NCBI GenBank assembly: GCA_016939365.1
Contig: JAFGHD010000067.1
Span: 1 to 59,662 of the forward strand
Direction of reading: 5' to 3'
DNA length: 59,662 bases
DNA from: Bacteroidales bacterium
GTDB lineage: Bacteria; Bacteroidota; Bacteroidia; Bacteroidales; JAFGHD01
Notes under the pieces: generated by a model
What the model was told of the DNA's origin: nothing
Seen by the model: only the letters and a program-made list of their open reading frames with translations
Database searches by the model: none
In this document: positions 18,415 to 40,303 of the stretch, in pieces
How positions within the stretch are numbered: position 1 is the stretch's first letter
Layout: every line of letters begins with the position of its first letter
Program-made: the position numbers and the translations under genes

Positions 18415-18458
18415 TTAAAGAAACCTTAATATATTCTTTACAAAGAGTTAAGAATAGG
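18415..18458 (+). promoter_or_regulatory. Pho-box-like array: four TTAA-type elements at 11-bp spacing (response regulator promoter)
   Basis: TTAA occurs at 18415, 18426 and 18448, and TTTA at 18437, exactly 11 bp apart. The last element lies 15 bp before TAGTTTTG at 18463. PhoB/OmpR-family regulators bind direct repeats with an 11-bp period, and the cyanobacterial SphR box has a TTAA core. This suggests autoregulation of the response regulator that follows. Binding is inferred. Confidence 0.7.
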
Positions 18459-18462
18459 GGGA

Positions 18463-18470
18463 TAGTTTTG
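18463..18470 (+). promoter_or_regulatory. -7 element for the response regulator
   Basis: TAGTTTTG is a full match to TAnnTTTG, 15 bp downstream of the last TTAA of the array and 22 bp before the ATG at 18492. The same 15-bp spacing recurs at the small CarboxypepD_reg-like gene promoter (37845-37867). Confidence 0.6.
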
Positions 18471-18491
18471 CCGGCATCCTTTCTGCCGGTA

Positions 18492-19172
18492 ATGGAAAAT
18501 AATGAAGATACCATTCTTCTGGTTGATGACGATCCGGATATCCTGGAATTTCTTGGGTATAACCTGAGAAAAAACGGATTCAGGGTTTATACTTCCACTA
18601 ACGGGACGGAAGCCATTGAAAGAGCGCGCGAGGTATTGCCCCAGTTGATCATCCTTGATGTGATGATGCCGGGAATGGACGGCATCGAGACATGTGCAGA
18701 AATCCGGAAGATGGGTGAACTGAGGAATACACTGATCGCCTTCCTGAGCGCACGTGGGGAGGATTATTCTCAGATTGCCGGATTTGAGGCCGGTGCTGAT
18801 GATTATATCCGGAAACCGGTAAAACCCAATGTGCTGGTCCACCGGGTGAAGGCTCTGCTCAGGAGATTCGCCTCCCAGGAGGATGACAGGCTGATACGGC
18901 TCAATAATCTCGTGATTGACCGTGATAAGTACATCATTATCCACAATAAAAAGGAAATTTCACTCCCCAAAAAGGAATTTGAGTTGCTGTCCTTTCTGGC
19001 CACCCATCCCCGTAAAGTGTTTTCCCGGGAAGAGATATTTCTGGAGGTCTGGGGGGATGATGTGGTCGTGGGAGATCGTACCATCGATGTTCATATCAGG
19101 CGGATCCGTGAAAAGATCGGCATGAACGTAATCAAGACCATCAAAGGAGTGGGCTATTCATTTTTATTATGA
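18492..19172 (+). CDS. PhoB/OmpR-family response regulator, orphan
   Basis: A 226-aa two-component regulator. The receiver domain has the acidic cluster VDDDPD (Asp12-14), phosphoacceptor Asp56 in LIILDVMMPGMDG and the conserved Lys in YIRKPVKPN. A winged-helix DNA-binding domain fills residues of about 130-226 (LPKKEFELLSFL, VVGDRTIDVHIRRIREK). The ATG at 18492 is chosen; an upstream start at 18468 would overlap the -7 element. No histidine kinase is adjacent. Because the 11-bp TTAA arrays occur at its own promoter and at five other sites in the next 22 kb, it is the best candidate for the factor that reads them, in the style of PhoB. That link is inference. Confidence 0.9.
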   Translation: MENNEDTILLVDDDPDILEFLGYNLRKNGFRVYTSTNGTEAIERAREVLPQLIILDVMMPGMDGIETCAEIRKMGELRNTLIAFLSARGEDYSQIAGFEAGADDYIRKPVKPNVLVHRVKALLRRFASQEDDRLIRLNNLVIDRDKYIIIHNKKEISLPKKEFELLSFLATHPRKVFSREEIFLEVWGDDVVVGDRTIDVHIRRIREKIGMNVIKTIKGVGYSFLL

Positions 19173-19634: not shown

Positions 19635-19644
19635 GATATGTTGG

Positions 19645-19688
19645 TTAACTTTTTTTTAATGTTAACTTAAACAAGACTTAAAAGGGTT
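19645..19688 (+). promoter_or_regulatory. Pho-box-like array: four TTAA elements at 11-bp spacing (first TBDR promoter)
   Basis: TTAA occurs at 19645, 19656, 19667 and 19678, four perfect cores exactly 11 bp apart, about 70 bp upstream of the TBDR ATG and 11 bp upstream of the divergent YpsA-like gene. No strong TAnnTTTG follows; TTTCTTTA at 19704 (26 bp after the last core) is the best phase-matched candidate. A promoter that depends on an activator would be consistent with the weak -7. Confidence 0.75.
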
Positions 19689-19750
19689 GCACATGATAAA
19701 CTCTTTCTTTACATCCAGATTTTCAGCGACTTTATTTATCCAAAAGGATT

Positions 19751-22669
19751 ATGCTTAAGAGGATTACGTGTTTATTGCTCCTTATTTCCGGTGTTGTTCT
19801 GCTTTATTCGACCTCCACTGCCCAGAAAGGTGAAATCGCCGGATTTGTCCAGGATAGAAAAACAAGGGAGACGCTTATCGGTGCAAATGTAATCATCAAG
19901 GGGACAACTTTGGGTGTATCCACGGACATTGACGGCAAGTTCAGACTGGCTGGGGTGGATCCTGGGATATTTAGCATTGAAGTGTCTTACATCTCATATA
20001 GGAAGCTGGTTATCGAAGGTGTTGAGGTCAATCCCGATCAGACAACGGATCTGGAAATTTTCCTGGAGGAAGATGCCCGGATGCTGGAAGGCATTGTAGT
20101 CAGGGAAAGGAGAAAAACCGATACGGAGATATCGATCATCAGCGCGGTCAAAGCTTCCAATGTGGCTGTTACGGGAATGTCGCGGCAACAGATTTCACGG
20201 TCGCTGGATAAAAATGCAGCAGAGGCCATGCGCCGTGTCCCCGGCGTGACGATCATGGATGGTCGCTTCATCGTCGTCCGAGGCCTGTTAGACAGGTATA
20301 ACACAGTTTGGCTCAACGGATCGGCGACACCCAGCTTTGAGTCCGATAAAAGATCCTTTTCATTTGACATACTCCCGACTTCTTCCCTTGACCGCATGAT
20401 GATCTACAAAACTCCTGCTCCCGAGCTTCCGGCCGATTTTGCAGGGGCTTCCATACAGCTTTTCACACGAAACATACCTGAAAAGAACAGCCTGTCCATC
20501 GGATACAAAATGGGATTCAGGGAAGGTACCACTTTCAGGGACTTCTACACTTATGAAGGTGGTAAAACTGACTGGCTCGGTTTTGATGACGGCACACGGG
20601 CTTTGCCCGATAATTTCCCATCCACACAGGAGATTGAAGAACTGCACAACTGGGATGACCTTGGGCTTCCACCAGAGGAGATGCAAAAAATCCTCGCTGC
20701 CAAGAGGGCAAGTCTGGAAGAACTGGGTCGCTCATTCAATAAGATATGGGACAGGCAAAACATCACAGCCCCTATTGATAACTCCCTGGAGGTGGAATTC
20801 AACCACCGGCTCACAATCGGTAAGATGATTGCTTCAAATATTACCGCATTGACCTATCGAAATGAGTTTAATCACAATGTGATCCGGAATTCGAAATACC
20901 TGTACAATGAGGATCTGGGCATCATAGATACCAACTTCAATTTTTCGGATCACTATTACCGTAACGAGATCATGGTGGGTTTACTGCACAACTGGTGCTT
21001 GATGCTGAAGGACGGCACCATGATCGAATTCCGGAACCTGTTGAACCAGATTTCCTTTGATAACTATGCGATCAGGACAGGACGGGATTATTACAGGGAA
21101 GCTGAAATCGAATCCCACGAACTGGGATACATGAGCCGGAGTACATATTCCGGTCAACTCGGAGCCAAACATGAACTATATACGCATTCCTCGATCGACT
21201 GGTCTGCCGGCTTTGCTTACGCCGACAGAAAAGATCCGGATATCCGCCGCCTTTACGGTACCTTGAATGATGATACAGCCAGTGCCTACTACGGACAATA
21301 TTCCATTGAGTTCCTGGCCGATGCCACCCCTGAGCTGAACGGAAGGCTCTTCTTGAGTCTGGATGAAAGGATCTGGAACGGAGCGGTAAACTACAGATAT
21401 AAGGTGCATCTGGGCAATTTTCATCCTGAGATCAGGGCTGGTGTCTATTACGAAGGCAAGAACAGGCATTTCATTGCCAGAAACCTGGGATTTGTCAGGG
21501 CTTTCTCAAACCAGTTCAATACTGATATTGAATACATCAGGCCTTTCGGGCAGATGTATGCTGATTCGAACATCACATATCCCACGGGTATCCTTCTTGA
21601 CGAAAAGACACATGCAGAAGACTCCTATAAGGCCGAAAACACGCTCATTGCAGCCTACCTGGCATTCAATATCCCGATTACCATCCGGCTCAATCTTTAT
21701 GCAGGGGTCAGGATGGAGCAGAACAGGCAGAAACTGTATGATTTTTATAAAAACTCTGCGGACGATTCACTGGCGATCGTGATTGATACGATGAATTTCT
21801 TTCCGTCAGCCAATCTGTCCTGGGACTTGACAGAACGAAGCAAGGTACGCCTGGCTTACGGAATGACAGTGAACAGGCCTGAATTCAGGGAAATAGCACC
21901 CTATTCATATTATGATTTTGTGAATGCTTCACAGATGTACGGGAATGGTAGTCTCCGGAATGCCTATATACACAGTTTTGACCTGCGTTATGAATACTAT
22001 CCGTCTTCATCCGAGATGATCACTGCCGGGGCCTTTTATAAGCTTTTCATCGATCCGATCGAAAACACCCTCATTCCGGTAACCACTGACAAGTGGACTT
22101 TCCAGCCGTGGAATGCAAAGGAATCCACCAGTCTGGGGTTTGAAATGGACATTAAGAAGTCCTTCTGCGGGCTCGCTGAGACCAATGGGTTCTTGCATTC
22201 CTTCAGGGATATCAGCCTGGTTTTCAACGCCGCCTGGATCTGGAGTGAAGTGAGGGAAAAAAAGGCATTTGTCAGGGATGAGAAGAGACCGATGCAGGGA
22301 CAGTCACCCTATATCGTAAATGCTGGAATTCACTACGATAATAGGGATATCGGCCTTGTAGCCAGCATCCTTTACAATGTTATCGGGAAACGGATTGTCT
22401 TTGTGGGAGATCCGAACACCCCGCATACCTATGAAATGCCCAGAAACCTCCTGGAGTTCTCATTTACCAAGTCAGTCGGAGAACACCTGAAAATCCGGGG
22501 TGGTGTTGAGGATATCCTGGATGAGCCTGTCAAGTATCAGCAATCTGTTGAGTTCCTTGAAGATACCAACGAAGATGGCGTCGGGGATACGAACAAAACT
22601 TATGATCAGGTGCTGAAATCATTTTATCCGGGTCGCAAATACAGCCTGGGTATTGTATATACCTTCTGA
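19751..22669 (+). CDS. TonB-dependent receptor with CarboxypepD_reg-like N-terminus
   Basis: A 972-aa outer-membrane receptor. After the signal peptide (ending near STAQ) comes a CarboxypepD_reg-like domain (about residues 27-115, GFVQDRKTRETLIGANVIIKG style), then the plug with AAEAMRRVPGVTIMDGRFIVVRGL and the barrel ending in an aromatic residue (GIVYTF). The plug motif APELPADFAGASIQL resembles that of the second TBDR at 33841. There is no SusD-like partner. It heads an operon with three cohesin-like genes, ending at the terminator at 26713, and has a four-element TTAA array upstream. Substrate unknown; organic phosphorus is an inference from the regulatory sites and neighbours. Confidence 0.92.
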   Translation: MLKRITCLLLLISGVVLLYSTSTAQKGEIAGFVQDRKTRETLIGANVIIKGTTLGVSTDIDGKFRLAGVDPGIFSIEVSYISYRKLVIEGVEVNPDQTTDLEIFLEEDARMLEGIVVRERRKTDTEISIISAVKASNVAVTGMSRQQISRSLDKNAAEAMRRVPGVTIMDGRFIVVRGLLDRYNTVWLNGSATPSFESDKRSFSFDILPTSSLDRMMIYKTPAPELPADFAGASIQLFTRNIPEKNSLSIGYKMGFREGTTFRDFYTYEGGKTDWLGFDDGTRALPDNFPSTQEIEELHNWDDLGLPPEEMQKILAAKRASLEELGRSFNKIWDRQNITAPIDNSLEVEFNHRLTIGKMIASNITALTYRNEFNHNVIRNSKYLYNEDLGIIDTNFNFSDHYYRNEIMVGLLHNWCLMLKDGTMIEFRNLLNQISFDNYAIRTGRDYYREAEIESHELGYMSRSTYSGQLGAKHELYTHSSIDWSAGFAYADRKDPDIRRLYGTLNDDTASAYYGQYSIEFLADATPELNGRLFLSLDERIWNGAVNYRYKVHLGNFHPEIRAGVYYEGKNRHFIARNLGFVRAFSNQFNTDIEYIRPFGQMYADSNITYPTGILLDEKTHAEDSYKAENTLIAAYLAFNIPITIRLNLYAGVRMEQNRQKLYDFYKNSADDSLAIVIDTMNFFPSANLSWDLTERSKVRLAYGMTVNRPEFREIAPYSYYDFVNASQMYGNGSLRNAYIHSFDLRYEYYPSSSEMITAGAFYKLFIDPIENTLIPVTTDKWTFQPWNAKESTSLGFEMDIKKSFCGLAETNGFLHSFRDISLVFNAAWIWSEVREKKAFVRDEKRPMQGQSPYIVNAGIHYDNRDIGLVASILYNVIGKRIVFVGDPNTPHTYEMPRNLLEFSFTKSVGEHLKIRGGVEDILDEPVKYQQSVEFLEDTNEDGVGDTNKTYDQVLKSFYPGRKYSLGIVYTF

Positions 22670-24691: not shown

Positions 24692-24750
24692 TATTTTATC
24701 AAAGATTATTGAATGTCAACCAGGCAACATTAGTAAGAAATCCCAAAGCA

Positions 24751-25473: not shown

Positions 25474-25501
25474 CAATCATAAACCATCAAACATAAATAT
25501 C

Positions 25502-26788: not shown

Positions 26789-26821
26789 GTAACAATTTTT
26801 TAACAGATAATTAAACTTCAG
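26789..26821 (+). promoter_or_regulatory. Pho-box-like array: three elements at 11-bp spacing (beta-helix/dockerin promoter)
   Basis: GTAAC at 26789, TTAAC at 26800 and TTAAA at 26811 are exactly 11 bp apart. TACTTTTA at 26848 (one mismatch to TAnnTTTG) is 37 bp after the last core, two helical turns further than the 15 bp seen at the response regulator. The gene starts at 26887. Confidence 0.65.
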
Positions 26822-26886
26822 GACACGTGCTTTCAATTCTGCCACAATACTTTTATCCCAGTTTTTAACCAAAAACACAAGCGATT

Positions 26887-29800
26887 ATGAAAAAGCTACT
26901 TTTTCTGGCAACATTTTGTGTTGCAATGTTTCAGTTCATTTTTGGTCAGAATACGATTGACAATCCGTTTTTTGACCATGTGCCTTACATCGGTGCTTTC
27001 GGTTCGGTTGACTGGACGGATGGTTGGTCCAACTTCGATCCCCAGAATACGGTTTATCCGTCAACGACCATCACCATTCCGGCCGGCGACATCACTGCAA
27101 ATACCACCTGGTCTTCCGGGACATCCCCGTTGCTGGGAGGGGCTTCTTTCGCAAACCCGAAGCTTATGGATCCTTTTTTCACTCCGGTAACCTATATCGG
27201 TGCTTTTGACGGTACCAATGACTGGACGTCGGGATGGGCTGAGTTTGACCCGCAGAATGCCGTGTACCCGCCGACGACCGTTACCATTCCGGCCGGTGAT
27301 ATCACCAGCAACACGTTGTGGACCAATACCAATATTTATAAGCTTGACGGATGGGTCTATGTGAAGAACGGGGCTACCTTGACGATACAGGCAGGCACCA
27401 TTATCCGTGGTGACAAGGGAAACAAAGGCGCCCTGATCATTGAAAAGGGCGGCAAACTGATTGCCGAAGGCACTGCTGCCCAGCCGATTGTCTTCACTTC
27501 CAACCAGGCAGCAGGCAGTCGTGACTACGGTGACTGGGGCGGTCTGATCCTCTGCGGTAATGCAGTGATCAATGTTCCAGGAGGCGTGGCCACTATCGAA
27601 GGCGGCGTTGGCGCCCAATATGGGGGAACAGATGATTCTGACAATTCCGGAACCATCAAGTATGTCCGTATCGAGTTTCCGGGTATTGCCTTCCAGCCCA
27701 ACAATGAGATCAATGGTCTGACCATGGGCGGTGTCGGAACAGGAACACAGATCGATTATGTTCAGGTTTCATATTCCGGTGATGACTCCTTCGAATGGTT
27801 CGGCGGCAAGGTCAATGCAAAGCACCTGATCGCGCTCCGTGGATGGGATGATGATTTCGATACCGATTTCGGCTACAGTGGTAAGGTTCAGTTTGCCGTC
27901 TCACTCAGGGACCCGGCCATTGCCGACGTTTCCAGTTCCAACTCGTTCGAATCAGACAACGATGGATCCGGTTCATCCAACACACCCATCACGAGTCCGT
28001 TGTTCTGCAATGTCAGCATTTTCGGACCCAAGGTTGAACTAGGCACTACTGTCAATTCGGATTACAAACGTTCCATGCACCTGAGAAGGAATACCCGCTG
28101 CAGCGTTTACAACTCAGTATTTGCCGGATTCCCCATAGGACTTTACATTGATGGTGCCGCAGCCCAGGCCAATGCCACAAACAACGACCTTCAGATTGAG
28201 AACTGCATTTTGTCCGGTATGGTGACCAATTTTACTTCGACTTTCGAACAGAATTACTTCACCGCACCGTTCAGGAACAACTCGGTGCTGACCAATAATT
28301 CTCAGCTGAATGTCGCTGATCCTTTCAACCTTACCAATCCTGATTTTCAGCCGCAGACCGGGAACAACGTCTACAAGCTGGACGGTTGGGTTTATGTGAA
28401 ATCAGGTGCTACCCTTACCATTGATCCCGGTACGGTCATCCGTGGTGACAAGGGAAACAAGGGTGCCCTGATCATTGAGCGCGGCGCAATGCTGGTTGCT
28501 GAAGGCACGAAGAATGCCCCGATCGTATTCACTTCCAACCAGGCAGCCGGCAGCCGTGACTACGGCGACTGGGGTGGCGTGATCCTCTGCGGCAATGCGG
28601 TGATCAATGTCCCCGGTGGTGTGGCCACCATCGAAGGCGGTGTCGGAACGCAGTACGGCGGAACCAATGACAATGACAACTCAGGAGTTCTGAAGTATGT
28701 CCGCATTGAATTCCCCGGAATCGCCTTCCAGCCCAATAACGAGATCAATGGCCTCACCATGGGAGCCGTCGGCAATGGAACTACCATCGATTACTTTCAG
28801 GTCTCCTATTCGGGTGATGACTCCTTTGAATGGTTCGGAGGTTTCGTCAATGCCAAGCACCTCATTGCCCTGCGCGGATGGGATGATGATTTCGATACCG
28901 ACTTTGGTTTCAGAGGGATGATCCAGTATGCCGTTTCCCTCAGGGACCCTGCCATTGCAGACGTTTCGAGCTCCAACTCGTTCGAATCGGACAACGATGG
29001 TTCCGGTTCATCCAATACCCCGGTCACCCAGCCGATATTCAGTAATGTGAGCGTTTTCCTGAATAACAGCGTAACGCTTAATTCAGACTACAAAAGAGAT
29101 ATGCACCTCAGAAGGAATACCCGTTGCAGCGTGTTCAACTCCATATTTGCCGGATTCCCCATCGGTCTATACATTGACGGTGCGGCTGCACAGCTGAACG
29201 CTACCAATAACGACCTGAAAATTCAGAATACCATCCTGGCTGATGCTGCCTCCACATTCTTTACATCGGGTTTCGAGCAGACCTATTTCGAGACTGCTTT
29301 CAGGAAGAACGGAACGCTGTCCGACATCGCCGATCTGATGATCACCGATCCGCTGAATCTGACCAACCCGGATTTCCTTCCGTTGGCCAACTCACCCATA
29401 CTGTTCCGCTCATACTGGTGTAAGGAAGTTGCGGGAACACTGACATATGACAACACTGCCGGAACACCGCTGTCCAATGTGACCGTCTATGTGAATGACG
29501 GATCAAAGGGCGTGGTGATGCAGACCGTTACCAACACCTCCGGTCAGTATACATTTCCGTATGTCTTCGAAGGCGCCTATACGCTGACAGCATCATCCAC
29601 CACAGCTTTTGGTGGCCTGAACTCCACCGACGCACTGGTGATCCGCCGTCACTCCCTCGGTCTCCTTACCCTCACCGGCCTCAGGCTTCTTGCTGCCGAT
29701 GTGAATGAGTCAAGCAGCATCAATACCACCGATGCATTGCTGGTGAGAAGACGTTCACTCAGCCTTCCGGTACCCTCCTGGAGCGCTCCCGACTGGCTGT

Positions 29801-29907
29801 TTGAAAATCCGGGCATAAGCATTGCGGGCTCCAATATCACCCAGAATTTCAAGGGTATATGTTCCGGTGATGTGAATGGTTCCTATACCCCACCCGTTGC
29901 CAAATAA
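26887..29907 (+). CDS. Tandem beta-helix surface protein with C-terminal dockerin-like domain
   Basis: A 1006-aa secreted protein (signal peptide ending FIFGQ). Residues 26-75 and 95-145 are two copies of a short module (YIGAF...DWT.GW..FDPQN.VYP). Residues of about 149-493 and 494-838 are two copies of a roughly 345-residue beta-helix-like domain (KLDGWVYVK.GATLTI, GTIIRGDKGNKGALI, DYGDWGG, EFPGIAFQPNNEINGLTMG, DDSFEWFGG, GWDDDFDTDFG, SSNSFESDNDGSGSSN, MHLRRNTRCSV). A carboxypeptidase-regulatory/SpaA-like domain follows (SNVTVYVNDG ... YTLTASSTTAF), then a dockerin-like pair (LNSTDALVIRRHS, ADVNESSSINTTDALLVRRRS) and GDVNGSY. No T9SS C-terminal domain is evident. It is homologous to the lipoprotein at 32399. 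Ligand unknown. Confidence 0.85.
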   Translation: MKKLLFLATFCVAMFQFIFGQNTIDNPFFDHVPYIGAFGSVDWTDGWSNFDPQNTVYPSTTITIPAGDITANTTWSSGTSPLLGGASFANPKLMDPFFTPVTYIGAFDGTNDWTSGWAEFDPQNAVYPPTTVTIPAGDITSNTLWTNTNIYKLDGWVYVKNGATLTIQAGTIIRGDKGNKGALIIEKGGKLIAEGTAAQPIVFTSNQAAGSRDYGDWGGLILCGNAVINVPGGVATIEGGVGAQYGGTDDSDNSGTIKYVRIEFPGIAFQPNNEINGLTMGGVGTGTQIDYVQVSYSGDDSFEWFGGKVNAKHLIALRGWDDDFDTDFGYSGKVQFAVSLRDPAIADVSSSNSFESDNDGSGSSNTPITSPLFCNVSIFGPKVELGTTVNSDYKRSMHLRRNTRCSVYNSVFAGFPIGLYIDGAAAQANATNNDLQIENCILSGMVTNFTSTFEQNYFTAPFRNNSVLTNNSQLNVADPFNLTNPDFQPQTGNNVYKLDGWVYVKSGATLTIDPGTVIRGDKGNKGALIIERGAMLVAEGTKNAPIVFTSNQAAGSRDYGDWGGVILCGNAVINVPGGVATIEGGVGTQYGGTNDNDNSGVLKYVRIEFPGIAFQPNNEINGLTMGAVGNGTTIDYFQVSYSGDDSFEWFGGFVNAKHLIALRGWDDDFDTDFGFRGMIQYAVSLRDPAIADVSSSNSFESDNDGSGSSNTPVTQPIFSNVSVFLNNSVTLNSDYKRDMHLRRNTRCSVFNSIFAGFPIGLYIDGAAAQLNATNNDLKIQNTILADAASTFFTSGFEQTYFETAFRKNGTLSDIADLMITDPLNLTNPDFLPLANSPILFRSYWCKEVAGTLTYDNTAGTPLSNVTVYVNDGSKGVVMQTVTNTSGQYTFPYVFEGAYTLTASSTTAFGGLNSTDALVIRRHSLGLLTLTGLRLLAADVNESSSINTTDALLVRRRSLSLPVPSWSAPDWLFENPGISIAGSNITQNFKGICSGDVNGSYTPPVAK
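27331..29400 (+). repeat. Internal tandem duplication of the beta-helix domain
   Basis: Copy 1 is about 27331-28365 and copy 2 about 28366-29400, each near 1035 bp. Protein landmarks recur in the same order in both copies (KLDGWVYVK at each start, NLTNPDF near each end), and long DNA stretches are nearly the same, so the duplication is fairly recent or kept similar by gene conversion. Confidence 0.8.
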
Positions 29908-32307: not shown

Positions 32308-32340
32308 TTAACATAAAAATAACACAAACTTAAGATTCAT
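32308..32340 (+). promoter_or_regulatory. Pho-box-like array: three elements at 11-bp spacing (beta-helix lipoprotein promoter)
   Basis: TTAAC at 32308, ATAAC at 32319 and TTAAG at 32330 are exactly 11 bp apart. TTCTTTTG at 32356 (one mismatch to TAnnTTTG) begins 26 bp after the last core. The gene starts at 32399. Confidence 0.65.
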
Positions 32341-32398
32341 TTATTGTCAAGGCCATTCTTTTGCATCGGCAATTCAGTATCAAAAAAACAACGAACAA

Positions 32399-33760
32399 AT
32401 GAAAAACAGAAATTTCCAAATGATGCTGCTGCTGACCCTTGCGGTTCTTGTGGCATTGGCATCCTGTAAGAAAGATGACGACGAACAGACAGAGACACCG
32501 GAACCCAGCGAGTACACGATCGTCGACAATGGGAACGGTACGGGAACCACTACCTGGAAAGCGGGCAAGACCTATATCCTGGAAGGGATGGTATTTGTCA
32601 ATGATGGCCAGGTGCTGACAATCGAGCCGGGTTGTGTGATCAAGGGCAAACCGGGTCAGGGAGAAAATGCAAGTGCACTGATCGTCGCCAGGGGCGGAAT
32701 GATCATGGCTGAGGGAACCGCACAAAATCCGATCATTTTTACTGCTGAGGCCGATAACCTTCAGGGTTCCGTTGCGCTCAAGGACCGCGGTTTGTGGGGC
32801 GGACTGATCATTCTTGGGAAAGCCAGGCTCAATTCAACACCCGGTGAAACGGCTATTGAGGGTATCCCCACCAGTGAGCCAAGGGGCCTTTACGGAGGTA
32901 ATGATGACAATGACAACTCAGGAGTTTTGAAATATGTTTCCATCCGTCATGGAGGTACCGATATCGGAGAAGGTAACGAGATCAACGGACTGACCCTGGG
33001 TGCTGTCGGATCCGGAACAGAGATCGAGTATATTGAGGTCTTAGCGAACAAGGATGATGGTGTTGAGTTCTTCGGCGGCAAACCCAATCTGAAGCATGTC
33101 ATCGTGGCTTACAGCGGAGACGATTCTTTCGACTATGATGAAGGGTACCGGGGATTTGGCCAGTTCTGGTGTGCCATACAGGATGACGCCGCAGGTGACC
33201 GGGTAGGCGAGCATGACGGAGGTACCGATCCGGAGACGGCCCAGCCTTATGCCACTCCGCATATCTTCAATGCCACATACATCGGAAGGGGCGCCGGCGC
33301 GGGATCCAGGGTGATCACCTTCCGGGACAATGCAGGCGGACACTATGCCAATTCCATCTTTGTCAATCAGGAGAAAGGAATTGATATCGAAATGACACCG
33401 GATGCTGAGAATTCCTTCAACCGCTTCAAGACGGGTGACCTTACCCTGCAGAACAACATCTTCTTTGGAGTAGCTGATGGGACGGCATCAGGACTGTTCA
33501 AGGTTTCCTTTATTACCGGTTCTTCAGCCAATCCCGATTCTGCCACGGCTGTCCAGACCTTCTCCGGCTATTTTGCCACAGCGGGCAATACCGTTGAAGA
33601 TCCCGGTGTTACGGCCGCCAACCCCGTTCCTTCGAATGCCGGGGGAACCATGGCCAGCTATCCGGATCCGTGGTTTGCCAATGTCGCCTACAAAGGTGCA
33701 TTTGAGCCAGGTGCAGCCAATTGGGCCGAGGGATGGACACTTACCTTTGCTTCCAAATAA
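32399..33760 (+). CDS. Beta-helix lipoprotein, single-domain homologue of the 26887 protein
   Basis: A 453-aa lipoprotein: signal with lipobox ALASC, an acidic linker (KKDDDEQTETPEP), then EYTIVDNGNGTGTTTWKAGKTY and one beta-helix-like domain (VLTIEPGCVIKG, LWGGLIILG, NDDNDNSGVLKYVSIRHGG, EINGLTLGAVGSGTEIEYIEV, DDGVEFFGGKPNLKHV, DDSFDYDEGYRG). It ends PDPWFANVAYKGAF...NWAEGW, the same short module that is found at the start of the 1006-aa protein. It precedes a TBDR by 80 bp and is probably its surface-exposed partner, in the place SusD has in glycan systems. Ligand unknown. Confidence 0.85.
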   Translation: MKNRNFQMMLLLTLAVLVALASCKKDDDEQTETPEPSEYTIVDNGNGTGTTTWKAGKTYILEGMVFVNDGQVLTIEPGCVIKGKPGQGENASALIVARGGMIMAEGTAQNPIIFTAEADNLQGSVALKDRGLWGGLIILGKARLNSTPGETAIEGIPTSEPRGLYGGNDDNDNSGVLKYVSIRHGGTDIGEGNEINGLTLGAVGSGTEIEYIEVLANKDDGVEFFGGKPNLKHVIVAYSGDDSFDYDEGYRGFGQFWCAIQDDAAGDRVGEHDGGTDPETAQPYATPHIFNATYIGRGAGAGSRVITFRDNAGGHYANSIFVNQEKGIDIEMTPDAENSFNRFKTGDLTLQNNIFFGVADGTASGLFKVSFITGSSANPDSATAVQTFSGYFATAGNTVEDPGVTAANPVPSNAGGTMASYPDPWFANVAYKGAFEPGAANWAEGWTLTFASK

Positions 33761-33840: not shown

Positions 33841-36648
33841 ATGAAACAACTGTATCTCCTGTTTCCATTGCTCCTGCTCGGGTTTTTCCTTGCTGCCCAG
33901 AAAGGGATCATACGCGGTAAGATCATCGATGCCGAAACGGGTGAGGAACTAATCGGCGCTGCAGTGATCCTTGAAGGCACGACTATCGGTGCTTCCGCCG
34001 ATCTGGATGGAAATTTTTCCATTGAAAACATTGATCCCGGGACTTATGACGTCAAATGCCAATACATTTCATACGAAACACAGATCATCCGGGGAGCAGA
34101 GATCAGGGAGGGAGAGGTTTATATTTTGAACATCAAGTTGAAACCCGTCAGCCTGGGATTGGAAGAGGTTGTTGTGGAGGCCCGGCAGATACGCAGAACG
34201 GAAGCGGCCCTGCTCACGCTTCAGAAGAAGTCGGCAACGGTGCTGGACGGTATATCAGCCCAGCAGATCTCCCGGACCGGTGACAGTGATGCCGCATCTG
34301 CCCTCAAGAGGGTAACCGGTGTCTCGGTTGAAGGCGGTAAATATGTCTATGTCAGAGGGCTTAGTGACCGCTATACCATGACATTGCTGAACGGTGCAGA
34401 GTTGCCCGGACTGGATCCCAACCGCAATACGGTTCAGATGGACTTGTTTCCCAGCAATCTGATCGAGAACATGATTGTCCACAAGGCCTTTTCACCCGAC
34501 CTGCCGGGAAGTTTTACCGGTGGACTTGTGGATCTGCAGACAAGGGACTTTCCGGAAACTTTAACCTTTCGCTTCTCAACCTCGCTGGGTTACAATGATC
34601 AGACCAGCCTGAACAGCAGCTTCCTGACCTATGAGGGAGGCGACCTGGACTGGCTGGGCGTGGACGATGGCACCCGTGAGGTTCCTGTCTCTCCGCAAGA
34701 CATCCCGGTTTATCCTGTCAACAGGGACCTGCTCGATCAGACCACCATGGAGTTCAGCAAGATCATGGCCCCTGTGGAGGATGCATCGTTTCTCGATCAC
34801 AATCATTCCTTGTCGCTTGGAAACCAGACGAAACTCTGGGGCAGACAGCTGGGTTATATCGCAGGCATCAGCTATTCCAGGGATTATAGTTATTATGACG
34901 ACGGTGCGGTCGGTTTCTACCGCCTGCTGGATCCCACATCTGAGGTGCTCAACAGGGAATACAGTTACAGCGACCGCCAGGGAGAGATGAACGTGCTCTG
35001 GGGCGGCATGGTGAACTTCAGTTACAAGATATCAGACCAGCATAAGCTGGGAATCAATCTGATCCATAACCAAAGCGGTTCCCGGTCGGCCAGGTATATG
35101 ACCGGAGAGGTGCCATCAGACGGGATCGGAAGATTCAGGGAGACCCGCACCCTGAAATTCATCGAACGTTCGCTTTCATCTGCTCAGGTAAGGGGGGAAC
35201 ACCATCTGAAGGAAATGGCGGATATCAGGATTACCTGGCTCAGTTCCACAGCCTTATCCAGGCAGGATGAACCCGACCTGCGGTTCTTTACAAACAGCTT
35301 CTACCCCGAAGCACCCCAGGGAAGCCGGTATTCGATTAATCCTTCTGAATACAGGGTTCCGGCCAGATATTACCGGGACATGGAACAGATCAACGTCGAC
35401 AATAAAATACATTTTGAGCTTCCCTTTCATTATCTTGGGATATCCTCGAAGTTCAGGAGCGGTGCTTCGTGGGTTTACAAGAAACGGACATTTCATGAGT
35501 CCCGGGTTGATTACCTGAGTCAGGTGACCTACTTCAACGGCAACGTCAATGAATATCTTGACGATCAGTTCATCGGGCAGAACCACCCCCTGTATGACCC
35601 TGTTACCCGTCAGAATTACGGACTTTATGTGCAGGATGGCTCTAACCTGAAAAACAGTTATTCCTCCAGCGAATCGGTGCTGGGGCTTTATGCTATGCTG
35701 GATATGCCGGTACTTCAGGGAGTCAGGATTACAGCAGGCGTCAGGTACGAAACCACCGACCTGTACAGCAAGTCGGAGAATCCGAAGTATGAGCCCGGGG
35801 AATTGATGGAATCGGACCTCCTGCCGTCATTGAACCTGACCTGGTCACTGACCGGTAAAACCAACCTCAGAGCCGGTTACAACAGAACGCTCGCCCGTCC
35901 CACATTCAGGGAGATATCACCCGGTGATTCTGAAGACTTTCAGGGGGGCATCGTCTATATTGGCAATCCCGATTTGAGGCGCACCCTGATTGATAACCTC
36001 GACATCCGTTTCGAGACTTTTATGAGGTCCGGCGAGATCATTTCTGTCAGCGGATTTTACAAGAAATTCAATGACCCTATCGAACTGGCCGACGACATCC
36101 GTGCCAACAATCCCCAGCTCACATGGATCAATACCGACAGGGCCAATGTGTTCGGATTTGAACTTGAACTCAGGAAACAACTGGATTTCCTGAGGATTCT
36201 CAGGAACGTGAATATAGGTGCCAACGCAGCCTTTGTCCGCTCGCTGGTCTCCATTGATTCGCTCGAACTGATCCTGATCCGGACTTATGATCCGGATGCT
36301 GAGGACACCCGGAGCATGTTCGGTCAGGCACCGTATATTTTTAACGCACTTCTGGGTTATGTGAGCGACTCCATCGGGCTGGATGTGAGCCTCAGCTTCA
36401 ACATCACTGGCGAGAAGCTGGCCGTTGTCATGAGGGGTGGAACACCCGACGTTTTTGAACAACCGGCAGGGCTGCTGAATCTGAACCTCTCGAAAAGGAT
36501 AGGTAAACGCATTTCCCTGAGCGCCGGAGTGGAGAACATCCTGAACCCCGAGAGGAAATTTACGTATACCTATAAAGATATGGAGTACATTTACCGGAGC
36601 TATTCCACCGGCCGGAAGTTCAAGGCGGGAATTTCATTCCGGATTTAA
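33841..36648 (+). CDS. TonB-dependent receptor, paired with the beta-helix lipoprotein
   Basis: A 935-aa outer-membrane receptor with a signal peptide (ending FFLAAQ), a CarboxypepD_reg-like domain (about residues 22-105; GKIIDAETGEELIGAAVILEG), and a plug with QISRTGDSDAASALKRVTG and VYVRGLSDRYTMTLLNGAELP. The motif SPDLPGSFTGGLVDLQTRDFPE is of the same type as in the first TBDR. The barrel ends GRKFKAGISFRI. It lies 80 bp after the beta-helix lipoprotein, with a hairpin between them, and before a MORN-like protein. No SusD is present. Substrate is not indicated by the protein itself. Confidence 0.92.
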   Translation: MKQLYLLFPLLLLGFFLAAQKGIIRGKIIDAETGEELIGAAVILEGTTIGASADLDGNFSIENIDPGTYDVKCQYISYETQIIRGAEIREGEVYILNIKLKPVSLGLEEVVVEARQIRRTEAALLTLQKKSATVLDGISAQQISRTGDSDAASALKRVTGVSVEGGKYVYVRGLSDRYTMTLLNGAELPGLDPNRNTVQMDLFPSNLIENMIVHKAFSPDLPGSFTGGLVDLQTRDFPETLTFRFSTSLGYNDQTSLNSSFLTYEGGDLDWLGVDDGTREVPVSPQDIPVYPVNRDLLDQTTMEFSKIMAPVEDASFLDHNHSLSLGNQTKLWGRQLGYIAGISYSRDYSYYDDGAVGFYRLLDPTSEVLNREYSYSDRQGEMNVLWGGMVNFSYKISDQHKLGINLIHNQSGSRSARYMTGEVPSDGIGRFRETRTLKFIERSLSSAQVRGEHHLKEMADIRITWLSSTALSRQDEPDLRFFTNSFYPEAPQGSRYSINPSEYRVPARYYRDMEQINVDNKIHFELPFHYLGISSKFRSGASWVYKKRTFHESRVDYLSQVTYFNGNVNEYLDDQFIGQNHPLYDPVTRQNYGLYVQDGSNLKNSYSSSESVLGLYAMLDMPVLQGVRITAGVRYETTDLYSKSENPKYEPGELMESDLLPSLNLTWSLTGKTNLRAGYNRTLARPTFREISPGDSEDFQGGIVYIGNPDLRRTLIDNLDIRFETFMRSGEIISVSGFYKKFNDPIELADDIRANNPQLTWINTDRANVFGFELELRKQLDFLRILRNVNIGANAAFVRSLVSIDSLELILIRTYDPDAEDTRSMFGQAPYIFNALLGYVSDSIGLDVSLSFNITGEKLAVVMRGGTPDVFEQPAGLLNLNLSKRIGKRISLSAGVENILNPERKFTYTYKDMEYIYRSYSTGRKFKAGISFRI

Positions 36649-36669
36649 TACAAGTGCATTTCAAGATCA

Positions 36670-37149
36670 ATGATTATGTCACATTATAGATTGCCCCAGA
36701 TATGCCTGGTTTTCCTGATCCTGCTGGTATTTGGGATTGAGGGAACATCCCAGGACCTGGAATATATGGACGGTCAGTATTATAAGAACGGAATGTTGTA
36801 TACCGGCCGGCATGTCGAGTATTACGAAAACGGGAATCCGTGTGTCGAGAGAAACATCAGCAACGGTATCGAGGATGGAATGGTGATCTTTTATTTCCCG
36901 GACGGATCAATGAGGGAACAAAGATCATACAGAGAGGGGGAAAAGGACGGGTTATGGGTGACCTGGAATGAACAGGGTGTTAAAACCGCAGAAGCACGCT
37001 ATCAGGATAACCTCAAGCACGGCAAGTGGTATATCTGGGATGATTCGGGCCAGCTCCTGTATGAAATGGAATACGATATGGGCAAGAAGTCAGGTACCTG
37101 GAAGATGTTTGACAGCACGGGTAATCTGATTGATGAAAGAAAATACTGA
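36670..37149 (+). CDS. Secreted MORN/YwqK-like repeat protein
   Basis: A 159-aa protein with an N-terminal signal or anchor segment (ICLVFLILLVFGI) and repeats of the form YY.NG.., F.DGS.REQ.SY.EGEKDGLW, which match MORN-variant repeats (YwqK family). NCBI-style naming as an antitoxin is historical, and nothing suggests a toxin-antitoxin pair here. It follows the TBDR by 21 bp and ends that operon. Probably an envelope or secreted protein of unknown role. Confidence 0.75.
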   Translation: MIMSHYRLPQICLVFLILLVFGIEGTSQDLEYMDGQYYKNGMLYTGRHVEYYENGNPCVERNISNGIEDGMVIFYFPDGSMREQRSYREGEKDGLWVTWNEQGVKTAEARYQDNLKHGKWYIWDDSGQLLYEMEYDMGKKSGTWKMFDSTGNLIDERKY

Positions 37150-37458
37150 TCTCCAAGCATAAACTTTTACCGGGTTTTCTGAATGGCTGATAAGCCGAAG
37201 TGCATATCGGTGCTTCCCGATACAACTGATTCTCCGGGGACTGACTTGGATTAATGCCGGCATTGGGGAATGAAGGAACTTCCCCCAAATTGGCTGGTCA
37301 GTGAGCATCTTTGCCCTGGGGACTTCAGCCCGGTTGCTTTTTCCTGATTCGTGCAGGGGTGAAAATTGGTTCGTGAAGGGAGGGATGAATGTCCCGGATG
37401 AAAAAAAAGCGGGATATTTCACCCGCCGGCCATTCATATTGTTAGCTATGAAGCGCGA
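37150..37458. other. Non-coding convergent interval
   Basis: About 310 bp between the MORN-like gene and the small minus-strand gene. Apart from the minus-strand terminator at 37401-37426 I see no gene, repeat or regulatory motif in it. Confidence 0.5.
37401..37426 (-). terminator. Rho-independent terminator for the small CarboxypepD_reg-like gene
   Basis: On the minus strand GCGGG, an 8-nt loop and CCCGC are followed by eight T (complement of 37401-37408). It lies about 33 bp after the stop of the 121-aa gene. Confidence 0.7.
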
Positions 37459-37824
37459 TTAATCGTCGGCTTTCAGCTTGATCTCCAGTTCCTGATTGGA
37501 GCCGGTCACCTCCATGTTTTCAATGAGGCTGTTTTTGTAAGAAATGAAGGAAGCGATGAGGGTATATGTGCCCGGGGTCATCGTTTTGAAAGTAAAACGT
37601 CCGTCCAGGTCGGTATATGCCTTAAGCCCGGTACCATCGATCATGATTTCCACGCCGGTAAGCATTTCTCCGGAATCAATGTCCTTGACCACTCCTGAGA
37701 TGCTTAAAGTGGGAACCGGCCCATTGGCCGGACGTTCACCGGAGGAATCCGAACCCTTGTCGTTTCCTGCAAAACACAACGTCGAAACTGAGAATATCAA
37801 GGTCAGAAAGAGGATTTTTTTCAT
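37459..37824 (-). CDS. Stand-alone secreted CarboxypepD_reg-like domain protein
   Basis: A 121-aa protein: signal peptide (ending LCFAG), a short linker (GNDKGSDSSGERPANG), then one CarboxypepD_reg-like domain (ISGVVKDIDSGEMLTGVEIMIDG, TDLDGRFTFKTMTPGTYTL) ending EIKLKADD. This is the module that forms the N-terminus of both TBDRs here, but without plug or barrel. It has a four-element TTAA array and a perfect -7 element upstream and a terminator downstream, so it is a single-gene unit that is likely strongly regulated. Function unknown; a periplasmic partner of the TBDRs is one possibility. Confidence 0.85.
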   Translation of the reverse strand: MKKILFLTLIFSVSTLCFAGNDKGSDSSGERPANGPVPTLSISGVVKDIDSGEMLTGVEIMIDGTGLKAYTDLDGRFTFKTMTPGTYTLIASFISYKNSLIENMEVTGSNQELEIKLKADD

Positions 37825-37844
37825 AAAATCATTTTTTATCGATA

Positions 37845-37852
37845 CAAAAGTA
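37845..37852 (-). promoter_or_regulatory. -7 element for the stand-alone CarboxypepD_reg-like gene
   Basis: The minus strand reads TACTTTTG, a full match to TAnnTTTG, starting exactly 15 bp after the gene-proximal TTAA of the array, the same spacing as at the response regulator promoter. It ends 20 bp before the ATG. Confidence 0.6.
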
Positions 37853-37863
37853 CCGGCACAGGG

Positions 37864-37900
37864 TTAAGGGATTATTAAGGGAATATTAATTTATTGTTAA
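37864..37900 (-). promoter_or_regulatory. Pho-box-like array: four perfect TTAA cores at 11-bp spacing
   Basis: TTAA cores begin (plus coordinates) at 37864, 37875, 37886 and 37897, all exactly 11 bp apart. Read on the minus strand they are TTAAC, TTAAT, TTAAT, TTAAC. The distal core overlaps the stop codon of the PiT gene, so the array sits between two minus-strand genes and most likely drives the downstream small gene. Confidence 0.75.
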
Positions 37901-40215
37901 TTTCCCTTGGGGGGGCTGGCATTTGCATCCTGGTCAATGACATTTTGTTCTCCTGAAATCCCATTGATGTGATGGATGAAATCCCTGTGTGATTTCAAGA
38001 GATTGACCAAGAAAAGTGTAAGATTTTTACTTTCGGCGAGTATGTTCAGGAAGAGTAAGGTGTTTTTGGTACCTACCTCTTTTTGTTTAACTCTTTTGAC
38101 CTGTTTTCTTCTGAGCTGGTCGATGAACTGAAGAATATGCTGCTGATTGCTCACGACAGGTTCAATATGGAGAAGTTCCAGATTGCTGATCAGTGTTTTG
38201 AAAGTATCAATCAGTCCCGATATCTTTACATTCAGCTGATTCAGGTCTTCCGTCTGAGACTCAGACAGTCCCTTGTGGTTGTTATCGACGTGTTCCACAC
38301 TGGGTTTTGTGATAAAATTGAGGCAATGTGCGATTTCTCTGAGATAATCGAGAACCTGGACATAGTGGTGGGCAGATTCGATGGAGTCGTCCTCAATGCG
38401 GAGGATGATTCCATTGACGTTATCTTTCAGGTCTTTTGACCTTCTGTTGATCTCTTTAACGGTTTTTGCATTGGCTTTCAGAACCTTAATGTTCTCGTGA
38501 GCCAATCCCTGGGTGTTCAGGCTTAGGATTTGCGGGATTTTGGTAATCAGATCGTGGACTTCTTTGGAACAGCTTTCAAATATCTTTTTATGACTCAGGG
38601 ATCCTCTTTCATCTTCATCAGAGCTGAGGGATTTTTGTTTTGACAATCTTTTCCTGTGGATGCTATGGGTTTTGTAAACAAGAAATACCGAAAGGAGGAC
38701 AAACATGGCAATAGTGATGAAACCGCCATAATAGATCACCAATCCGATCAGGAAAGATACCAGAAACGCAGAAAGGGCAGTAACGAACCAGCCTCCAACG
38801 ACTGACAGTACACCGGTGATCCGGTATACTGCGCTTTCCCTGCCCCATGCCCGGTCTGCAAGGGAAGTGCCCATGGCAACCATGAATGTGACATAGGTGG
38901 TGGACAGGGGTAGTTTGAGTGATGTGCCCAGTGCAATAAGTATGCTGGCCACCACCAGATTGACCGAAGCACGTATCATGTCAAATTCAGGGATAATGCC
39001 GCGGGTGCCGTCTCTTTGATCTACTGCAGCGGGAGGCTCGAAGCGTGATTCCAGCTTCTGAGTGAATTTGCCCGGTATCCAACGGTTAAACCATATTGAG
39101 GCTGCCCGGGATTGATGTACCAGAAATCTTGAAAAGACGGTGGAGCTGAATCTTTCCCTTCCTTCCTGCTGTCTGCTGAGCTGGATGGTCGTAGCCACAA
39201 CCGATTTCGCCTTTCTGGAGGTCCACAGGGTGATCACCATCACAACTCCTGCCAGCAACAGGATAAATGTGGGGGTGCTTACAGCCCCCTGCATATCCGT
39301 CATCAGGAACTGGTCAGCTGCAACCCCTGATTCCGCGGAGAAAAACTGGTATGATTTCAGGCCTGCCAGCGGAACACCTATAAAATTGACCATGTCGTTA
39401 CCTGCAAATGCCATGGCCAGTGCGAATGTGCCAATCAGGATTATGACCTTCAAAATGTTGATGTTCACCAGCCATTTGAGTATCTGCAGTAATATGGTCC
39501 ATCCGGCAAGGCTGTATAATACAATCAGGAATGTATTGTTATGGATCCAGTTTAAACTCTCCGGTGAGATGAAGGATGAGCCTTTCGCCCCCTTGATGAT
39601 CATGAAATAGGTGATGGCCGATATGGCCGTTCCTCCCCAAAACGCACCGAAATACTTAAGGGTTCTGGAGTAATTGAAGGTAAAAATGAGCCGTGTGAAA
39701 TATTGGATGATCGCCCCGGCTGAAAATGCGATTACAACGGATACCAGGATGCCTGAGATGATGGCCAACGCCTTTGCTGAATTGATATAGTTGCCAAGAT
39801 CCATCACAGTTTCCGGGGACTTGCTGATTTTGATCAGGGAAATTGCCACAGAAGCTCCCAGCAGTTCAAATACAATGGAAACAGTGGTGGAGGTGGGCAG
39901 GCCGAATGTATTGTAAACATCCAGTAGGATCACATCCGTGATCATAACAGCGAGGAAGATGATAATGATCTCTGAGAAGAAGAATTGTTCCGGATGAAAG
40001 ATTCCCTTTCTGGCCACTTCCATCATTCCGCTCGAAAATGTCGCTCCGAAAAGGACTCCCGCCGCGGCAACCAACATGATGACCCTGAATGGTGCTGCCC
40101 TCGCACCAATGGCGGAATTCAGAAAATTCACCGCATCATTGCTGACCCCGACGATGAGGTCTGAGACAGCCAGAAGAAAGAGAACAACTATGAGTATCAG
40201 ATAGACATTATCCAT
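37897..40215 (-). CDS. PiT-family inorganic phosphate transporter with long C-terminal helical domain
   Basis: A 772-aa transporter. The two PiT signature repeats are present: VGVSNDAVNFLNSAIGARAAP near the N-terminus and AGNDMVNFIGVPLAG in the middle. About ten membrane segments reach to about residue 540. The remaining ~220 residues are charged and helical (KEVHDLITKIPQIL, ESAHHYVQVLDYLREIAHCL) and resemble PhoU-type four-helix segments. E. coli PitA is about 500 aa, so this is a much longer form. The ATG at 40215 is used; the frame opens earlier only at a TTG (40251). Two TTAA cores 11 bp apart and a TAGATTTG -7 lie upstream. Role: Pi uptake across the inner membrane. Confidence 0.92.
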   Translation of the reverse strand: MDNVYLILIVVLFLLAVSDLIVGVSNDAVNFLNSAIGARAAPFRVIMLVAAAGVLFGATFSSGMMEVARKGIFHPEQFFFSEIIIIFLAVMITDVILLDVYNTFGLPTSTTVSIVFELLGASVAISLIKISKSPETVMDLGNYINSAKALAIISGILVSVVIAFSAGAIIQYFTRLIFTFNYSRTLKYFGAFWGGTAISAITYFMIIKGAKGSSFISPESLNWIHNNTFLIVLYSLAGWTILLQILKWLVNINILKVIILIGTFALAMAFAGNDMVNFIGVPLAGLKSYQFFSAESGVAADQFLMTDMQGAVSTPTFILLLAGVVMVITLWTSRKAKSVVATTIQLSRQQEGRERFSSTVFSRFLVHQSRAASIWFNRWIPGKFTQKLESRFEPPAAVDQRDGTRGIIPEFDMIRASVNLVVASILIALGTSLKLPLSTTYVTFMVAMGTSLADRAWGRESAVYRITGVLSVVGGWFVTALSAFLVSFLIGLVIYYGGFITIAMFVLLSVFLVYKTHSIHRKRLSKQKSLSSDEDERGSLSHKKIFESCSKEVHDLITKIPQILSLNTQGLAHENIKVLKANAKTVKEINRRSKDLKDNVNGIILRIEDDSIESAHHYVQVLDYLREIAHCLNFITKPSVEHVDNNHKGLSESQTEDLNQLNVKISGLIDTFKTLISNLELLHIEPVVSNQQHILQFIDQLRRKQVKRVKQKEVGTKNTLLFLNILAESKNLTLFLVNLLKSHRDFIHHINGISGEQNVIDQDANASPPKGN

Positions 40216-40248
40216 CCCCTGAAGTTGGATATTCCTGATATGGCAAGG

Positions 40249-40256
40249 CAAATCTA
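40249..40256 (-). promoter_or_regulatory. -7 element for the PiT gene
   Basis: The minus strand reads TAGATTTG, a full TAnnTTTG match, starting 36 bp after the nearer TTAA core and ending 33 bp before the ATG at 40215. Confidence 0.5.
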
Positions 40257-40288
40257 ACCATTATATCAGGTCATGCCGTCCTGAAATA

Positions 40289-40303
40289 TTAAGTTATTGT
40301 TAA
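40289..40303 (-). promoter_or_regulatory. Pho-box-like pair: two TTAA cores at 11-bp spacing (PiT promoter)
   Basis: On the minus strand TTAAC begins at 40303 and TTAAT at 40292, 11 bp apart. Only two cores are seen, fewer than at the other sites, so this is the weakest member of the set. Confidence 0.5.

Follow-up and report, generated by a model that had tools for sequence, protein, structure and literature searches.

TTAA-type direct repeats with an 11-bp period, six arrays of which lie within a 59,662-nucleotide contig of a Bacteroidales bacterium (the window), appear to constitute the Bacteroidota Pho box of a phosphate-starvation switch, to which a PhoR-phosphorylated PhoB-type regulator is predicted to bind; judging from sequence comparisons, we put the probability of this reading at roughly 0.87. 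Many Bacteroidota most likely carry arrays of this kind upstream of their phosphate-uptake genes. The reality of the arrays, their register with the promoter, their conservation in a sister species, the content of the genes behind them and their ranking of phosphate (Pi)-induced genes in F. johnsoniae together make this identification very likely.

The initial annotation described six TTAA arrays of exact 11-bp period, and these proved real and beyond chance, except that the pair before the PiT gene lies at 40289 and 40300 rather than 3 bp away at 40292/40303. The cores of the first array are at 18415 (TTAA), 18426 (TTAA), 18437 (TTTA) and 18448 (TTAA), and those of the second, all TTAA, at 19645, 19656, 19667 and 19678. 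The third array has GTAA at 26789 and TTAA at 26800 and 26811; the fourth has TTAA at 32308, ATAA at 32319 and TTAA at 32330, then TTAT at 32341; the fifth has TTAA at 37864, 37875, 37886 and 37897; and the PiT pair, the sixth, is a two-core half array. The description of the cores as TTAA-type also stands in the main, with 17 of the 20 perfect and those at 18437, 26789 and 32319 deviating. The step from core to core is always 11 bp, and all arrays read one way, toward their gene. Like a Pho box, they comprise at least two direct repeats of 7–8 bp with an 11-bp period.

Chance or base composition, by which AT-rich spacers would yield TTAA runs with no regulator involved, is an extremely improbable source of these arrays. 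Three TTAA cores at 11-bp steps place TAA in three frames on both strands, so that such arrays are barred from long reading frames and gather between genes; intergenic position is thus forced, and we rejected it as evidence. The identity and direction of the genes after the arrays, unlike intergenic position, do count. Against chance, the pattern TTAAN7TTAAN7TTAA with up to two mismatches matched ten times in the window, compared with a mean of 1.44 (maximum 6) in 100 shuffles. Across the draft genome the same three-core pattern with up to one mismatch gave 25 sites (13 for a reversed-pattern control), eight of them in the window, which is 1.6% of the genome. A matrix trained on other families, with the window, the same-genus sister species (G1031) and Flavobacterium loci outside the training set, gave nine overlapping matches above 14 bits that cover five of the six window arrays, compared with an average of 0.05 (largest 1) in 20 simulated windows; its training loci were selected for phosphate genes, a possible bias, and scores at L100, L083, L105 and the other training loci are inflated by their membership. 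The two-repeat PiT pair was not recovered by this window-independent matrix.

The repeat unit in relatives is TTAACATTnnC, with a period of 11 bp. The Bacteroidota -7 promoter consensus is TAnnTTTG, located shortly before the gene start, and in relatives the distance from the start of the last core to the TTTG of this box is 19+11k nt. Boxes of this type stand near the gene starts in the window, matching TAnnTTTG exactly at 18463, 37845 and 40249, with one mismatch at 26848 and 32356, and with two at 19704. All five matrix-recovered window arrays are in exact register with the -7 box, with zero slip. The arrays therefore have the location of a Pho box, just upstream of the -10 or -7 element and in place of the -35 or -33 element, with the PiT pair one base out of register, its -7 box TAGATTTG (40249-40256, reverse strand) lying 40 nt after the second core. 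When arrays were sought with no -7 condition (n = 30), a strong -7 box accompanied 12, eight of these in exact phase and ten at most one base off; the limits of 6 bits for -7 strength and of 12 and 14 bits for arrays were our choice, and the -7 matrix was trained on 13 loci from a pattern that already required register, a possible bias. A combined array and -7 pattern gave 24 matches across 395 genomes of the phylum and three for its reversed control. Plain patterns showed no enrichment, whether two cores plus a -7 box with two mismatches in this genome (46 versus 54 in the control) or three TTAAC units in F. johnsoniae (53 versus 102), and the matrix was used in their place.

On the forward strand, the first array (18415..18451), which also occurs in the sister species, precedes an orphan PhoB paralogue of the OmpR/PhoB family with receiver and Trans_reg_C domains (18492..19172); in its -7 box TAGTTTTG (18463-18470), TTTG lies 19 nt past the start of the last core. 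The second (19645..19681), likewise kept in the sister, precedes a CarboxypepD TonB-dependent receptor (19751..22669), with a weak -7-like sequence TTTCTTTA (19704-19711) whose TTTA lies 30 nt past the last core; the -7 of this promoter is nearer to consensus in the sister than in the window. The receptor and the next three genes, two of which carry cohesin domains (22685-24691 and 25451-26686), form a putative operon. The third array (26789..26814), with -7 box TACTTTTA (26848-26855; TTTA 41 nt past the last core), stands before a secreted protein with Dockerin_1 and CarboxypepD domains (26887..29907), for which beta-helix was the label of the initial annotation. By eye, this protein resembles the product of the gene behind the L105 array. 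The fourth array, three cores plus TTAT (32308..32344), with -7 box TTCTTTTG (32356-32363; TTTG 30 nt past 32330), precedes a lipoprotein (32399..33760) that has no Pfam match and is homologous to the Pi-induced F. johnsoniae lipoprotein FII (38%) and to an FIII candidate (34%); beta-helix (IPR011050) is the label given to FII in PMC8115612. A second CarboxypepD TonB-dependent receptor (33841..36648, forward) and the small repeat protein after it (36670-37149) probably share one operon.

The remaining arrays are on the reverse strand. The fifth (37864..37900), the strongest in the window at 42.1 bits, precedes with its -7 box TACTTTTG (37845-37852) a 121-aa exported protein consisting of a single CarboxypepD_reg-like domain (37459..37824), a relative of which (32% identity) is encoded close to PhoB in Marinifilum flexuosum. 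The weak half array (40289..40303) precedes the PiT (PHO4) phosphate transporter (37897..40251). Because the TTG annotated as its start codon overlaps the -7 box, the ATG at 40215 is the likelier start. A neighbouring Na/Pi symporter (40811..42505, reverse strand) had no array of its own in the matrix scan.

Arrays with in-register -7 boxes are found at four orthologous promoters of the sister species, those at 18415, 19645, 26789 and 32308. Core letters are identical at 81 of 84 positions and spacer letters at 83 of 162, a comparison that is somewhat favourable in that the sister sites were located with the same matrix; this difference again speaks against composition as the origin of the repeats. 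Elsewhere in this genome, the scan for Pho-type targets foreseen by the initial annotation returned a mixed result: arrays stand before phosphate genes on contigs C1, C197 and C84, but also before a TetR-efflux operon (C107) and a small gene beside recQ (C48), neither with a known phosphate role. A DNA search with a candidate small RNA gave no match in nine relatives, a negative that carries no weight.

Arrays collected from 295 genomes with no condition on the gene lie mostly before genes for phosphate porins, PiT, Na/Pi symporters, Pst and PhoB, placing them before phosphate-acquisition genes as expected of a Pho box. Behind 23 such arrays we counted Porin_O_P six times, PhoU_div three times, and Na_Pi, PHO4, PBP_like_2 and a response regulator twice each. 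The class-wide search exceeded its control by a small margin (36 matches versus 22). The reversed-pattern control was free to fall inside genes (9 of 22 sites between genes, six with a gene start in reach). No phosphate transport genes occurred among the control sites displayed, a further point against chance, although one of the 22 control genes is also a CarboxypepD receptor. Because a control with 14-bp spacing was inflated by 7-bp tandem repeats, its counts were dropped and its downstream genes, present at 16 of 30 loci, were used.

We also compared matrix scores with published Pi induction in the genome taken for F. johnsoniae. Seventeen Pi-induced operon heads were separated from 600 genes with an AUC of 0.878, and from 395 genes with free upstream DNA with an AUC of 0.859. 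Sixteen of the heads are in Table 1 of PMC8115612, while 3253, absent from that table, was included as a presumed operon head; Fjoh_4889 was given its gene after its score was known, and the AUC is 0.871 without it and 0.864 also without 2478, a gene with no Pfam match of its own. Gene names were assigned from gene order, Pfam and the paper's table, with no annotation; 16 operon-internal genes were excluded, Fjoh_0542 was placed among the other genes, Table 1 genes 2225 and 3841 are absent from the stretches examined, and 0023, 0074 and 3187 lie outside the set. None of 300 column-shuffled matrices did as well; their mean AUC of 0.60–0.64 is a residue that composition could explain, but the optimum fell at a period of 11 and zero shift of the -7 box, with several other shifts nearly equal (AUC 0.84–0.85). 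The best site among these regions belongs to Fjoh_0542 (OprP), published as not induced, and the induced genes phoB (0544), 4577, 3859 and 4171 score low. The F. johnsoniae PhoBR locus, with a TonB receptor and FII, is reported as strongly Pi-induced in PMC8115612, and the main text seen there has no motif, promoter or binding-site wording; the F. johnsoniae arrays are more degenerate than those of the window. The proposal that the region is a phosphate-limitation regulon is well supported by class-wide gene content, the sister-species footprint and published F. johnsoniae Pi-starvation data.

Winged-helix regulators often bind once per helical turn, and the arrays might accordingly bind a different OmpR/PhoB-family member, such as an ArcA-like redox regulator with TTAA half sites every 11 bp, the phosphate genes belonging to a wider stress regulon. 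At E ≤ 1e-30 the PhoB model finds six matches in the genome, showing that further regulators are present, and PMC9603813 likens the DAP-seq motif of Riemerella anatipestifer PhoP to that of E. coli ArcA. We consider this improbable, as phosphate uptake dominates the genes behind unconstrained arrays, the F. johnsoniae ranking tracks Pi induction, and arrays preceding PhoB-type genes are seen again in other families. The most conserved letters of the PhoP motif, from the same phylum, are TTTAACA, in agreement with the arrays; the same passages report EMSA shifts, including a TonB-dependent receptor promoter, and 583 peaks, with 50 target genes alone differentially expressed, and the main text seen there contains neither 'Pho box', 'direct repeat' nor 'pstS' and no -7 register.

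Known Pho boxes share the geometry of the arrays. According to the parts of PMC1906773 consulted, the cyanobacterial SphR box consists of at least three direct repeats CTTAACCT (8 bp plus a 3-bp linker, an 11-bp period) before pst and phoA genes; its unit resembles the window unit C-TTAACATT, but it belongs to another phylum and promoter type, whereas the window arrays are register-locked to a TAnnTTTG -7 box. The E. coli PhoB box, as described in portions of PMC4415409 and PMC1906773, is likewise built of direct repeats, 11 bp each and occupied head to tail, some 10 bp before the -10 element, but differs in its unit (CTGTCAT), usually two repeats, and a sigma-70 -10 rather than TAnnTTTG. In passages of PMC3547664, B. 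fragilis needs PhoB to express pstC when Pi is low, and the protein binds a 512-bp fragment of the pstC promoter, for which those passages give no box sequence. Within the open-access literature we found no printed Pho-box definition for Bacteroidota, no description of the promoter register or phylum-wide reach of the arrays, and no orphan PhoB of this kind.

The regulator at 18492 had been proposed as the binder of the arrays, a view that needs correction: it is an orphan with no kinase adjoining, and the main binder may instead be a second PhoB, encoded on a different contig together with a PhoR-like kinase (C64:633-2362). The two regulators are 66% identical with nearly equal recognition stretches, and the window regulator is 58% identical to the regulator taken for the PhoB Fjoh_0544. 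PhoB is the best-scoring curated regulator model for the window copy, which scores 218 of the 296.2 bits required by TIGR02154 and 201 of the 270 required by NF053854; the C64 copy likewise falls below both cut-offs (207 bits each), and we therefore call the regulator PhoB-type rather than a TIGR02154 equivalog. An orphan PhoB clade with the array occurs in three further genomes. The regulator survey covered 50 of 80 named loci, leaving out other phyla and L303, with two more lacking a regulator frame (2 of 32 in an earlier set); in the tree, L249 and L263 are labelled as pairs though the neighbour is not visible. It is possible, if rather doubtful, that the C64 PhoB alone uses the boxes and that the window copy is a regulon member with other targets or decaying function. 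Pairing with PhoR, limited to the C64 copy, would fit such a division; the closer match of the window copy to the PhoB model (218 versus 207 bits), the similarity of the two proteins and the recurrence of the orphan clade argue against it.

In the preferred reading, PhoR would phosphorylate the PhoB-type regulator under phosphate starvation, and monomers would bind head to tail, one per 11-bp TTAACATTnnC unit, the last sitting where a -33 element would otherwise lie. Polymerase carrying the housekeeping sigma factor of Bacteroidota would then initiate from the TAnnTTTG -7 box, which is held in helical register: its TTTG begins 19, 30 or 41 nt past the start of the last core. In this genome the C64 PhoB beside PhoR probably starts the response, and the odds are about even that the orphan PhoB, behind its own Pho box, acts on these boxes too, as a second regulator in a feed-forward arrangement.

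It is an evenly balanced proposition that Bacteroidota, and other classes of the phylum, have a Pho-promoter class of their own, in which the -33 element gives way to a run of three to five TTAACATTnnC units in locked register with the -7 box. Such promoters would drive a conserved module for scavenging phosphate at the outer membrane (TonB receptor, beta-helix lipoprotein and one-domain CarboxypepD protein), and in one Bacteroidales lineage they would be governed by a duplicated orphan PhoB that has a Pho box of its own and so acts as a feed-forward amplifier. A rule of at least three TTAACATTnnC units with an in-register TAnnTTTG would allow Pho regulons to be predicted in Bacteroidota genomes, and would link Pi-induced TonB receptors and beta-helix exoproteins, whose switch has so far been undescribed, to PhoB. 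The arrays would also offer a clean case for how an activator cooperates with the unusual -7 promoter, and the orphan PhoB copy would render the feed-forward design testable.

Six intergenic arrays of TTAA cores at 11-bp steps had been proposed in the initial annotation; when the cores were re-read all six stood, with the pair upstream of the PiT transporter moved to 40289 and 40300. TTAA is exact in 17 of the 20 cores, and the spacing is 11 bp throughout. With up to two mismatches, TTAAN7TTAAN7TTAA occurs 10 times in the window versus 1.44 expected. With up to one mismatch, 25 sites occur in the 3.67-Mb draft genome, in which the window is contig 77 (59.7 kb), and the window accounts for 8 of these; the reversed control gave 13. 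Together with the evidence below, these counts make it very likely that the arrays are Pho boxes, as predicted.

Despite the palindromic core, the units of an array share one orientation, toward the gene. Loci of other families (97 units) define the unit as TTAACATTnnC, with the C of TTAAC at 84%, the next three letters at 62%, 58%, and 75%, and the final C, after two unconstrained bases, at 45%. The Bacteroidota -7 box has the consensus TAnnTTTG, and 3' of the arrays its TTTG begins 19 nt downstream when measured from the first base of the last core, or 30 or 41 nt downstream, which adds one or two turns. A matrix trained without the window, scanned on both strands and permitting a one-base register slip at a small penalty, gave nine overlapping matches above 14 bits in the window, at 37864 (minus strand), 32308, 19645, 26789, and 18415, all nine with zero slip; 20 simulated windows averaged 0.05 matches. 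Among 30 arrays sought without any -7 condition, 12 have a strong -7 box, in exact phase in 8 and at most one base off in 10, with a nominal p of 1.6e-6 that is optimistic because some of the source genomes are related. The PiT pair carries an exact TAGATTTG, yet one base out of register.

Elsewhere in this genome, reading by eye placed a 5'-nucleotidase-like gene, a calcineurin-like phosphoesterase, and sixA-ppk-ppx downstream of arrays on contigs C1, C197, and C84, respectively; a TetR-efflux operon follows the array on C107. The array on contig 48 (33234; locus L001, 1501-1555) scores 30.5 bits, has an in-register -7 box, and lies between recQ and a small gene. One-mismatch matches within reading frames on C3, C13, and C128 look like noise. 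One four-core array, on contig 95 (68641-68779; locus L045, 2042-2180), has its -7 box in register but no protein gene to drive on that strand. About 60 nt beyond it lies a strong terminator-like hairpin with a run of T (69 nt folding at -15.9 kcal/mol, z -3.9), making its transcript a candidate Pho-controlled small RNA; an uninformative search of 9 relatives gave no DNA match.

The sole same-genus genome among 41 searched, G1031 (blastn segments 64-77% identical), keeps the cluster order: regulator, TonB receptor, three genes, dockerin-type protein, a further gene, lipoprotein, TonB receptor, and small repeat protein. All four orthologous promoters there have arrays and in-register -7 boxes, and in an ungapped comparison with the window core letters are identical at 81 of 84 positions, spacer letters at 83 of 162. 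Between two array-preceded genes of the window, one encoding a dockerin protein (26887-29907), lie cohesin-domain proteins (22685-26686), and the two kinds may form a cohesin-dockerin pair within a phosphate locus. Arrays also occur at small exported proteins with a single CarboxypepD_reg-like domain (window 37459-37824; L276 6754-7125; L307 5637-5993), relatives of which are found near PhoB in named bacteria (Marinifilum flexuosum, 32% identity).

Across 395 genomes of the phylum, three exact cores with an in-register -7 box gave 24 matches in 23 genomes, and the reversed control 3. Thirteen of the 23 loci outside the organism's own genome precede, by eye, metallophosphatases (2), PstS (1), a porin-PstS pair (1), OprP-like porins (2), or CarboxypepD TonB receptors (7); the remaining 10 gave no assignment. 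Three repeats of TTAACN6, sought in 295 genomes of the class with no -7 or gene condition, matched 36 times (reversed control 22); 30 loci were read, 23 having a gene start within 450 bp. By Pfam these 23 genes include Porin_O_P (6), PhoU_div (3), Na_Pi_cotrans (2), PHO4 (2), PBP_like_2 (2), and response regulators (2); others, such as DNA polymerase III delta and spermine synthase, appear once each. None of the array-associated phosphate-transport families turned up at the 22 control genes (16 behind sites with 14-bp spacing, 6 behind reversed-pattern sites), judging from the protein starts read and from the 25 families listed out of 44; what did appear there includes an elongation factor, porphobilinogen deaminase, HisG, MnmE, and, once each, a pyrophosphatase and a CarboxypepD receptor. 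Tandem heptamers of TTAACCA or TTAACTT type are frequent between genes in many Bacteroidia and confound controls at 7- and 14-bp spacing.

Pi-responsive genes of F. johnsoniae have been tabulated by Lidbury et al. (PMC8115612). We placed 17 operon heads through gene order and Pfam in 800 kb of a genome taken as F. johnsoniae; that paper lists 16 as induced, and 3253 is a presumed head. A matrix trained on loci outside Flavobacterium ranked the 17 heads over 600 other genes with an AUC of 0.878. Taking as background 395 genes whose free upstream stretch is 80 bp or longer gave 0.859; with that background, 300 column-shuffled matrices averaged 0.603 and none equaled the real value. Among periods of 8-14 bp, 11 was best (10 bp, 0.777; 12 bp, 0.707), and among -7 shifts of -6 to +6 zero was best (0.880), with several near it (0.84-0.85). 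Against this, the top-scoring site lies at Fjoh_0542 (OprP), reported as not induced, and scores are low for phoB 0544, PlcP 4577, and two ECF heads (3859 and 4171). The window lipoprotein is homologous to the induced FII (38% over 322 columns) and to the FIII candidate (34%).

The top PhoB-model match in the genome is the window regulator (218 bits versus 207 for the copy on C64, which by eye has a PhoR-like kinase directly 3'); both miss the curated PhoB cut-offs. Identity is 66% between the two copies and 58% between either copy and the regulator taken as Fjoh_0544. A tree of 43 regulators puts the window copy in a clade with those of G1031, genome G1051, and Lentimicrobium (support 91/84, bootstrap not settled); all four lack an adjoining kinase and each has an array (23.8, 27.7, 26.8, and 25.1 bits). 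The sister group holds the PhoR-linked copies of this genome and G1031, which have no array (-8.2 and -14.1), and the kinase-paired L244, which has one (23.2). Among named Bacteroidota, array scores of at least 12 were reached by 6 of 33 PhoB genes paired with a kinase and by 4 of 13 without one, and an array before phoB is therefore not the rule. L307, from isolate SZUA-471, brings three arrays together, at PhoB, at a lipoprotein and TonB receptor, and at a one-domain CarboxypepD protein and small repeat protein, and by eye appears to be a compact form of the window module. Loci L303 and L316, whose PhoB shares 55-56% identity with that of the window, are labelled Glaciecola and Actinomyces, which looks more like contamination or mislabelled bins than real members.

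Repeats every 11 bp are a classical trait of Pho boxes (PMC4415409, PMC1906773); among known ones, the cyanobacterial CTTAACCT comes closest in sequence to the window arrays. PMC3547664 reports binding of the pstC promoter by B. fragilis PhoB, and PMC9603813 a DAP-seq motif for R. anatipestifer PhoP in which TTTAACA is best conserved, likened there to ArcA, along with EMSA shifts. The open-access literature searched held no printed account of the exact unit, the -7 promoter lock, the phylum reach, or the orphan PhoB.
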